Source: a virus. From it: DNA of 33,667 nucleotides. The position numbers and the translations under genes were made by a program. Below the pieces are notes generated by a model. That model worked only from the letters and a program-made list of their open reading frames with translations. It was not told the origin of the DNA and searched no databases. Every line of letters begins with the position of its first letter. Within the stretch, counting starts at the first letter, position 1. The DNA lies in the IMG/VR virus record IMGVR_UViG_3300027749_000315, positions 1 to 33,667 of that record; one strand, written 5' to 3'. Below are positions 16,352 through 20,425 of the stretch, one piece after another.

Positions 16352-16466
16352 GCGCCCAGACTTGGACAAAAATTCCAATGTGTCAATCTGTAGAAAGTTA
16401 AAATAATCGCTTGACGGACTTCCGCGACTCAGTCAGCTTGGCGATCAGACCAACAGAGCAAATCAC

Positions 16467-18075: not shown

Positions 18076-18336
18076 ATGCGTTTCGAAGTCATCTTGAATA
18101 TGCCAGTTCGGGGAGACCCTGAATCCGGTAAGCCACCATCACTCATTCACCGGCTGGTCGTAGAGCACCCCGCGAAGTCTCTTGCAGAATTTGCCCATGA
18201 GCTCATGAACATTGACTTCATCATCGTTGAAGAGTTCTTTCCCGGTAAATTTAGTAAAGAGTACGAAAGCCATGGGCTTGTCGCCCTCAACCACCGATAC
18301 GTCGGTAAAGTAAAAGAATGGGACAGAAAGCAATGA
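18076..18336 (+). CDS. Hypothetical phage protein
   Basis: An 86-residue protein with ATG 18076 after AAAGGATCTTAA. The sequence looks like a small alpha/beta protein: strand MRFEVILNMPV, helix AKSLAEFAHELMN, strands IDFIIVEEFFP and GLVALNHRYVGKV. No family is recognised. Its stop overlaps the next start in ATGA, so it is coupled to the DUF6378 gene. Confidence 0.75.
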   Translation: MRFEVILNMPVRGDPESGKPPSLIHRLVVEHPAKSLAEFAHELMNIDFIIVEEFFPGKFSKEYESHGLVALNHRYVGKVKEWDRKQ

Positions 18337-18719
18337 ACCACAAAGACGTACTCTATCAAGCAGCAACTATCCTCAATGATCGTGGCGAAATGTATGGAGA
18401 CATAAAAGATGTTTTCAGCCACGCATCGCAAATAGCATCTCTCATCAGCGGAAAAGAGTACAACGAATATGACATTTCTGTGGTGATGGAGGCGATAAAA
18501 CTGGCAAGACGCCGCGCAAACCCTAAGCTTGCTGATAACTACATCGACAATGTAAACTACACTGCGTTCTCGGCGCAGTTTGCCTTGAGCGACAACGAAG
18601 GAGAGAAACCCGCTGCCGTGGCAACGCAGCCTGAAGACGAAGGAATAGCATATGCACAAGACATCAGCGTACACTTTGACGGGGTTAGCACTACTGTCAT
18701 CGCCAGCCCTAGCCACTGA
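18333..18719 (+). CDS. DUF6378 family phage protein
   Basis: A 128-residue protein starting in an ATGA overlap. Residues 1-90 have the DUF6378 pattern: AATILNDRGEMYGDI, then a helix (DVFSHASQIASLIS), ISVVMEAIKLARRRANPKLADNYIDNVNYTAF split over two helices. The function is unknown, and the all-helical fold has been compared to nucleotide-pyrophosphohydrolase-like proteins. The C-terminal 40 residues lie outside the conserved domain, and the last 68 bp overlap the transglycosylase gene in another frame. Confidence 0.82.
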   Translation: MNHKDVLYQAATILNDRGEMYGDIKDVFSHASQIASLISGKEYNEYDISVVMEAIKLARRRANPKLADNYIDNVNYTAFSAQFALSDNEGEKPAAVATQPEDEGIAYAQDISVHFDGVSTTVIASPSH

Positions 18720-19191
18720 GGAAGATTCTGGTTCATTCTGGCGCGAAGAGGCCATGAGAACTGAGTTTGTGAAACCTGACAAAGTTGCAGTCTCTCAGAA
18801 AAAGAGAATTGTGATTGATCAGATCACTAAAGTGGTGAAGCAAGAAATTGGTGAGCAATGGGTAGCCAGCGCTCTCAAGATCGCAAAGGTTGAGAGTGGT
18901 TACCAATGCAATGCAACGGGTCCAAAGACCCGCCACGGTCGCGCAAAGGGTGTCTTTCAGTTGATTGACTCGTCTGCGCAAACTTTGGGATTTGACCCCG
19001 GTAAAATGTACGACTGCAATGAGAACATCGCGGCAGGTGTCGCCCATATGAAGGTCTGCATCAGGTATGGCGTGAAGGACCCGAGGGGCATGGCGGCTTG
19101 CCACGTTGCAGGCTGGAACCATTGGAACGTGAAGCTTGCTCGTCAGCATGAAAGATACAAGCAACGCTACATCAACATGGCTTCAGCCTAA
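18652..19191 (+). CDS. Exported lytic transglycosylase
   Basis: A 179-residue protein with ATG 18652 after GAAGGAATAGCAT. A signal peptide covers residues 1-21 (hydrophobic YTLTGLALLSS, then PALA before the cut). The SLT goose-lysozyme-like domain spans about 70-165: catalytic Glu81 in IAKVESGY, RAKGVFQLID (98-106), and NIAAGVAHM (125-133). Cysteines at 86, 122, 136 and 150 could form disulfides, which fits the periplasm. It cleaves peptidoglycan. Its place among replication genes, far from the endolysin, is unusual. Its start overlaps the DUF6378 gene by 68 bp. Confidence 0.9.
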   Translation: MHKTSAYTLTGLALLSSPALATEEDSGSFWREEAMRTEFVKPDKVAVSQKKRIVIDQITKVVKQEIGEQWVASALKIAKVESGYQCNATGPKTRHGRAKGVFQLIDSSAQTLGFDPGKMYDCNENIAAGVAHMKVCIRYGVKDPRGMAACHVAGWNHWNVKLARQHERYKQRYINMASA

Positions 19192-19194
19192 CGA

Positions 19195-19214
19195 GGGGGA
19201 GCTTCGGCTCCCCC
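19195..19214 (+). other. Intergenic GC hairpin (variant 4, TTCG loop)
   Basis: GGGGGAGC (19195-19202) and GCTCCCCC (19207-19214) close a TTCG tetraloop, which is especially stable in RNA. No T-tract follows. It sits four bases after the transglycosylase stop and before the GcrA-like gene, and is the fourth hairpin of this design in the rightward genes. Confidence 0.88.
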
Positions 19215-19232: not shown

Positions 19233-19415
19233 ATGGAGAAAAAGAACGGCATCATGGATCTCAATTTGAGAACCTGTCGCTACATCATCAACAAAGACAC
19301 ATCGCGGCCCGAATATTGCTGCGAGACAGTAACCCGCAGGCCCTACTGCGAAAAACATGCAAGGCTCTGTTACCTCCCGCCAAAGAAAAACGATTTGTTA
19401 ACCCGTACCGAGTAA
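19233..19415 (+). CDS. Stand-alone GcrA sigma-interacting-domain-like protein
   Basis: A 60-residue protein from ATG 19233 (an ATG at 19254 is also possible). Residues 13-50 follow the C-terminal region of the alphaproteobacterial regulator GcrA: a CR-aromatic start (TCRYI, Cys15), a Phe/Tyr-Cys pair (EYCC, 29-30), then RRPYCEKHARLCYLPP with Cys39 and His42. In GcrA this part contacts sigma70 domain 2, while the N-terminal HTH binds methylated GANTC sites. The HTH is absent here, and nothing in the upstream 40 bp could encode it. It may bind host sigma70 or compete with host GcrA. This is inference from motif similarity. Confidence 0.7.
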   Translation: MEKKNGIMDLNLRTCRYIINKDTSRPEYCCETVTRRPYCEKHARLCYLPPKKNDLLTRTE

Positions 19416-19445: not shown

Positions 19446-19739
19446 ATGATTCAGAACAAGCTCAGGGCAACCAAGGACAAGATAGACCCGCAATATTACC
19501 CGGGGGTTGAGAAGATTCTGATCAATCCTGATGGCCCAGAGGCCGCCAGCTACATTCAGAACATGATTGAGAACATGGGGCATATCATCAAGATTGCCCT
19601 TGAGAATGTAGAAGACGAAGAAACCAGAAAACAGATACAGGCCCACGCACATGCCGCAATCAAAGGAGTTCAAAATGAACATGAAAATGGCAGCCTATTG
19701 GGAATCTCAAGAAAACCGTTGGCACGAACGCTATATTGA
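19446..19739 (+). CDS. Hypothetical helical phage protein
   Basis: A 97-residue protein with ATG 19446 after AGAAAGGAACGCGAT. It is largely helical and charged (SYIQNMIENMGHIIKIALENVEDEETRKQIQAHAHAAIKG). The last 65 bp overlap the next gene, so residues after about 76 may be unconstrained. I recognise no family. Confidence 0.65.
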   Translation: MIQNKLRATKDKIDPQYYPGVEKILINPDGPEAASYIQNMIENMGHIIKIALENVEDEETRKQIQAHAHAAIKGVQNEHENGSLLGISRKPLARTLY

Positions 19740-19911
19740 AGCTGAGAAGCTGATCGACCAGCTTGAGTTGAAGGTCTGGAACCAAGCCAGCAGGATTGAT
19801 TTTCTAGAGGGAGCGCTCCGGGAGATCGCCAAGGTGAATAACAAGCGCGACCGTTTCAGCGATCAGATTGATGGCATTATCATCGCAGCATTGGGAGAAG
19901 GAAATGTCTGA
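19675..19911 (+). CDS. Hypothetical coiled-coil protein
   Basis: A 78-residue protein. I chose ATG 19675 because CAAAGGAG lies six bases upstream. Residues 10-50 form a charged amphipathic helix (ENRWHERYIEAEKLIDQLEL, ASRIDFLEGALREIAK), a likely coiled coil. It resembles the many small helical phage proteins made early. Its end overlaps the DnaA-like gene by 8 bp. No function can be given. Confidence 0.7.
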   Translation: MNMKMAAYWESQENRWHERYIEAEKLIDQLELKVWNQASRIDFLEGALREIAKVNNKRDRFSDQIDGIIIAALGEGNV

Positions 19912-20425
19912 CGCCCTCATAGACCTGCAAGCCCATTACAAGGCCGTCAGGGCCCGTCTGAATGCTGGCCCGCCACCCAAGCCCCTGCCACTACCTGAAC
20001 CTGCCCCTGAGCCTGTTGCAGCGCCTCCTGTGACGCCTCCGCTGGAAGCCCTGTCGATAGCTACCAGAGCACCGCAACTGTTACAGGGACTTCGGTGCTT
20101 CCCTGAGATCAAAGCAAAGATCCTACCGATTCTTGAAAAGCATCGGATTAATTGGAAGGATGCTTCTGGCAGGTCTCAGAAGTGGAGATATGTGGAGTGC
20201 CGCTTTGAGATCTATGCCAAGCTGAATGCTCATGGGTGGTCCCTCAGCCAGATCGGGCGTCTGTGTGGCGACCGCGATCACACAACAGTTCTGAACGGCA
20301 TTAACCGCTTCCTCAAGAAGAACCTGAGTGAGGCACAGTTTGGAATGTGCAAAGACCTTGGGATGCGTCCGGTGGATTACTACGAAGCAAAGGTGGTTTT
20401 GACTTCTATCGGGAGGATGAGATGA
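19904..20425 (+). CDS. DnaA domain IV-like DNA-binding protein
   Basis: A 173-residue protein from ATG 19904, preceded by GGGAGAAGGAA. Residues 21-48 are a proline-rich linker. Residues about 95-138 match the DnaA C-terminal HTH domain: CRFEIYAKLNAHGWSLSQIGRLCG, followed by the signature DRDHTTVLNGI (DnaA has GRDHTTVLH). The AAA+ part of DnaA is absent. It may bind DnaA boxes in host or phage DNA, either to block host initiation or to steer host factors to the phage origin. I saw no clear DnaA box cluster in the window. Its stop overlaps the next start. Confidence 0.85.
   Translation: MSDALIDLQAHYKAVRARLNAGPPPKPLPLPEPAPEPVAAPPVTPPLEALSIATRAPQLLQGLRCFPEIKAKILPILEKHRINWKDASGRSQKWRYVECRFEIYAKLNAHGWSLSQIGRLCGDRDHTTVLNGINRFLKKNLSEAQFGMCKDLGMRPVDYYEAKVVLTSIGRMR

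Follow-up and report, generated by a model that had tools for sequence, protein, structure and literature searches.

A phage gene encoding a free-standing GcrA sigma-interacting domain

Introduction

GcrA is a master cell-cycle activator of alphaproteobacteria, in which it joins DNA methylation to cell-cycle transcription. Its sigma-interacting domain (SID) binds region 2 of the sigma factor and its DNA-binding domain recognises methylated DNA (reviewed in PMC7403470). Once bound to sigma70, the protein is thought to stimulate only those promoters that have an adjacent methylated site (PMC7987155). Full-length GcrA is already known from phages phiCbK (gp222; PMC3556154) and Atu_ph08 (gp5; PMC6630229); Caulobacter phage DMCA and Agrobacterium phage 7-7-1 (gp14) also carry one, and two GcrA-like ORFs have been reported in Brucella phage Y17 (PMC11836647). 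Small proteins of other kinds act on sigma factors as well. Crl, which serves sigma S, and the actinobacterial RbpA dock on region 2; the phage-borne AsiA and gp39 target region 4.

Here we analyse a gene in the virus record IMGVR_UViG_3300027749_000315, the whole of which (33,667 bases) is referred to below as the window. Its 60-residue product resembles Caulobacter crescentus GcrA (PF07750; structures 5yix, 7ye1 and 7ye2) in SID homology, in an invariant Cys/Cys/Cys/His set, in the PYCxxHA motif with the aromatic residue that follows it and, going by a model built partly on GcrA SIDs, perhaps in fold. It differs in having neither HTH nor linker, in carrying YIxNK for WPxGD and in length, the Caulobacter protein having 173 residues. 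The full-length phage proteins likewise represent a phage-borne SID, and that of 7-7-1 shares with the window protein the CRYI form of the motif and a similar tail; unlike the window protein, they possess an N-terminal DNA-binding region. If the window SID binds sigma, it would be comparable to Crl and RbpA in docking on region 2 and to AsiA and gp39 as a small phage-borne sigma-binding protein; however, no homology to the former pair was shown, and no sequence relation to the latter was seen. Our searches of the open literature turned up no account of a phage gene limited to the SID.

Results

The product corresponds to the C-terminal part of GcrA

The ORF (Table 1) runs from an ATG to a terminal stop codon and translates as MEKKNGIMDLNLRTCRYIINKDTSRPEYCCETVTRRPYCEKHARLCYLPPKKNDLLTRTE. 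The first-pass annotation had taken this product for the C-terminal piece of GcrA lacking the HTH, an identification that sequence, profile and gene-order comparisons all bear out. The profile search proposed there as a test returned GcrA matches from two sides. Pfam PF07750 matched with E=3.4e-6 and 27.9 bits, narrowly above the curated cut-off of 26.9 bits (some clade members score 20-21 bits, under the cut-off), and hhalign aligned the stand-alone family profile with the GcrA SID profile at a probability of 97.4% and E=1.3e-11. The Pfam match is limited to the C-terminal third of the model, residues 3-51 falling on profile positions 99-149 of 155. The nearest PDB entry by sequence search was the GcrA SID 5yix_B (E=0.0065), and 7ye1 GcrA was also retrieved. 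The equivalog NCBIfam model for the sigma 70 cofactor GcrA (NF050816) gave 17.3 bits against a cut-off of 280, a value hardly within reach of a 60-residue fragment.

Residues C15, C29, C39 and H42 are invariant across 58 aligned SIDs, and the pattern suggests that they may bind metal. In place of the canonical CxWPxGD motif, the window protein reads CRYIINKD, so that WPxGD becomes YIxNK. Two extra cysteines, C30 and C46, are kept in nearly all members of the clade. The CRY[IV] form of the motif also occurs in phage GcrA proteins that have an N-terminal DNA-binding region, namely those of viral contig L122, 7-7-1 (gp14) and OLIVR4 (gp17c).

An AlphaFold2 model built on the 58-SID alignment had mean pLDDT values of 81-87 over blocks of residues 11-50. 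Foldseek placed three GcrA structures first among its matches (probabilities 1.00, 0.99 and 0.90); the rmsd to 5yix_B was 1.5-1.7 A, and VIA-align gave Z values of 5.1-5.3 for GcrA structures. This support for the fold is partly circular, since the modelling alignment holds many GcrA SIDs; a model from the stand-alone sequences alone reached a pLDDT of 56 and yielded no usable structural match.

The HTH is missing from the gene and from the window

The N-terminal HTH is absent from the ORF, as had been claimed, and a viral-GcrA HTH profile gave no significant match in any frame of the window, including upstream of the SID. As a positive control, this profile picked out the HTH in L122, a relative with full-length GcrA, at E=2e-6. 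A split GcrA whose HTH is coded elsewhere in the window was rejected on this basis.

Three viral contigs of a neighbouring lineage (L121-L123) are informative in this respect. They encode a full-length GcrA, with HTH and SID (Pfam positions 13-152 of 155, E=1e-15), whose SID shares the signature CRYI...HAKLCYLPP with the window protein. This gene sits right after homologs, in the same order, of the two genes upstream of the window SID, which are 40% (gene 18318) and 49% (SLT gene) identical. Because a full-length GcrA follows homologous genes in these contigs, the stand-alone SID is best read as GcrA minus its HTH. On the simplest reading, a phage GcrA gave up its HTH and linker at this locus and the gene encodes the SID that was left.

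In a tree of 38 SIDs, whose inner branching order is unsure because the alignment has few columns, the window clade falls together with L160, L120, L122 and L010 (support 96/85) and is separate from canonical GcrA. Branches with good support require no fewer than two switches between the SID-only and the full-length form. Further SID-only genes are those of L160 and L120 and, with the canonical WPIGDP motif, those of L124 and L125; in the latter two the form arose independently, and no GcrA HTH was found within 4 kb of their SIDs. Nearly all of 68 viral GcrA loci recovered by a scan for the canonical motif are long enough for an HTH. One of them (L049, on the same contig as L124) is SID-only, another (L089) is possibly so and lies near a contig end, and a third (L084) runs off its contig.

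The reading frame is conserved and under purifying selection

A stand-alone SID gene of 55-100 codons is present in 22 related viral contigs and in one contig of a metagenome-assembled genome (MAG), L033. A scan with the stand-alone-family alignment returned 26 viral loci, 22 of them in the window clade; each of the 22 codes for a SID alone and has a stop codon a short way upstream. Comparison of the window gene with four relatives gave dN/dS values of 0.03-0.14, and differences among 21 members distribute over the three codon positions as 2143/1397/4380, third positions varying most. The SID reading frame is under purifying selection. Despite wide divergence, the gene is intact in all members and its position and start are constant.

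A plasmid search for the SID gene gave no match. A match to Rhizobium phage RHEph12 was due to chance and lay in a different reading frame, and pattern matches in L023 and L029 proved to be low-complexity Cys-rich frames unrelated to the SID. Two phage contigs of the wider group, L033 (CANBWJ010000127.1) and contig C128 of G001 (L160, L162), each with a SID-only gene, are found in one Opitutae MAG, a placement that is probably a binning error.

Gene neighbourhood and host

The order SLT gene, SID gene, gene 19446 and DnaA domain IV-like gene is fixed in all 22 records checked. The last of these matches PF08299 with E=4.3e-6, below the cut-off, which its relative in L109 exceeds; it carries an RDHTTV signature. 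DnaA C-terminal domain ORFs also occur about 1 kb or less from GcrA in three other viral records, G018, G026 and G030 (L036, L048 and L055).

Table 1. Features of the SID locus (window coordinates)
Feature	Position	Strand	Remarks
Free-standing GcrA sigma-interacting domain (SID), 60 aa	19233..19415	+	Invariant C15, C29, C39, H42
Gene upstream of SLT	18318..18719	+	Order conserved in L121-L123; PHROG matches, naming uncertain
SLT transglycosylase-like gene, directly upstream of SID	18652..19191	+	Homolog also precedes full-length GcrA in L121-L123
Small conserved gene between SID and DnaA-like gene	19446..19739	+	Clade gene order
Free-standing DnaA domain IV-like protein (DnaA-box-binding HTH, GDRDHTTVLNGI signature)	19904..20425	+	Always near SID in clade
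Perfect hairpin GGGGGAGC-TTCG-GCTCCCCC between SLT and SID genes	19195..19214	+	21/21 clade members examined
Intergenic region ahead of rightward SID-bearing cluster	16379..16466	+	TTGAC 6/6 relatives; GACTC (GANTC site) at 16426, 5/6

The hairpin ahead of the SID gene, with its TTCG loop, is not followed by a T-run and exists in a single copy in the window; in L033 it has one change, in the stem arm beside the base. The intergenic region ahead of the cluster could be a putative GcrA/CcrM-responsive promoter, judging from its TTGAC and GANTC elements. The gene content of the window includes a terminase, a primase-helicase, a resolvase of the RuvC type and lysis-type genes. Reading through the window ORF list brought no phage RNA polymerase to light, and scanning the window for Rfam families and tRNAs returned nothing. 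A gene at 2365-2991 is 2OG-Fe(II) oxygenase-like; its match to the FlmC family of NCBIfam (E=1.4e-23) falls under the cut-off.

At 48-52%, the nearest relatives of the TerL protein are those of a Manatee Spring phage and of Caulobacter phages; that of the primase is from a Rhizobium phage (41%). GANTC is rarer in the window than expected, with 55 sites versus 149 under a first-order model and, within genes, 46 versus 74 +/- 6.5 in codon shuffles. These relationships, together with the GANTC depletion, suggest an alphaproteobacterial host.

Discussion

What might a phage gain from half of GcrA? If GcrA activates only promoters with a methylated site, a SID deprived of the DNA-binding domain is expected to occupy sigma70 without activating, and so would compete with host GcrA. 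One could picture the phage SID, in an alphaproteobacterial host, still binding the primary sigma factor at domain 2 and, for want of an HTH, being unable to use methylated GANTC promoters. By filling the GcrA site on RNA polymerase it would displace the host protein, and GcrA-dependent transcription would fall during infection. We propose this competition tentatively, as the leading reading but one with somewhat less than an even chance of being correct. The main doubt concerns its first step: sigma binding cannot be assumed, because WPxGD is replaced by YIxNK. The replacement alone need not mean that function was lost, since CRY[IV] occurs in full-length phage GcrA.

Occupancy of sigma could also have the opposite outcome. 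The SID alone, seated on sigma70 domain 2, might stabilise sigma region 2 and open complexes much as Crl does, thereby raising transcription from phage promoters with no need for GANTC methylation. The sigma2-binding activators Crl and RbpA strengthen sigma-core and -10 contacts, Crl without touching DNA, and the SID gene belongs to a replication or early-type cluster. Moreover, a methyl-independent cofactor would suit a phage whose genes are depleted in GANTC. However, the literature ties activation by GcrA and sigma70 to promoters with methylated sites, and the SID alone is not a known activator; we consider a positive role of this sort unlikely.

The altered motif invites a different thought, namely that the CCCH fold was kept while sigma binding was lost and the domain took on another role, for instance as a small zinc-binding adaptor. 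Conservation of C30 and C46 in nearly all clade members, added to the YIxNK replacement, would fit such repurposing. On the other hand, HTH-bearing GcrA proteins of L122, 7-7-1 and OLIVR4 combine CRY[IV] with a similar C-terminal tail, and in these proteins the SID is expected to contact sigma. A change of function therefore strikes us as improbable.

The constant company of the DnaA domain IV-like gene raises the question of whether two polypeptides replace GcrA, the DnaA-like protein binding DNA in trans and the SID contacting sigma. The former gene lies a few genes downstream in all 22 synteny-checked records with a stand-alone SID; in the more distant L160, it comes immediately before the SID gene, with a 14-nt overlap between the two. 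Furthermore, no DnaA_C match turned up in L121-L123, the related records that carry full-length GcrA and that may be fragments. Yet the 22 records amount to a single lineage, and 7 of the 34 other viral records in which GcrA occurs have a DnaA_C gene as well, mostly with full-length GcrA, as does Ssp-JY42. DnaA boxes are not enriched in the window either (1 found versus 1.4 expected). A split activator is accordingly a quite unlikely arrangement, and there is only a slim chance that the two proteins form a phage GcrA in which the SID makes the sigma70 contact and DnaA-type sites take the place of methylated GANTC in marking phage promoters. Finally, the absence of the HTH might betray a functionless GcrA remnant in decay, an idea so strongly disfavoured by the low dN/dS, the intact gene and its constant position and start as to be barely credible.

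Whichever way the SID acts, a natural version without HTH tests which half of GcrA does what: sigma docking alone may activate, do nothing or block. Should the competition model hold, the SID would rank as a sigma appropriator of phage origin that works on region 2; the phage sigma repressors given in a review act on region 4 (PMC7403470). Such a protein might also provide a small genetic tool to shut off the GcrA regulon.
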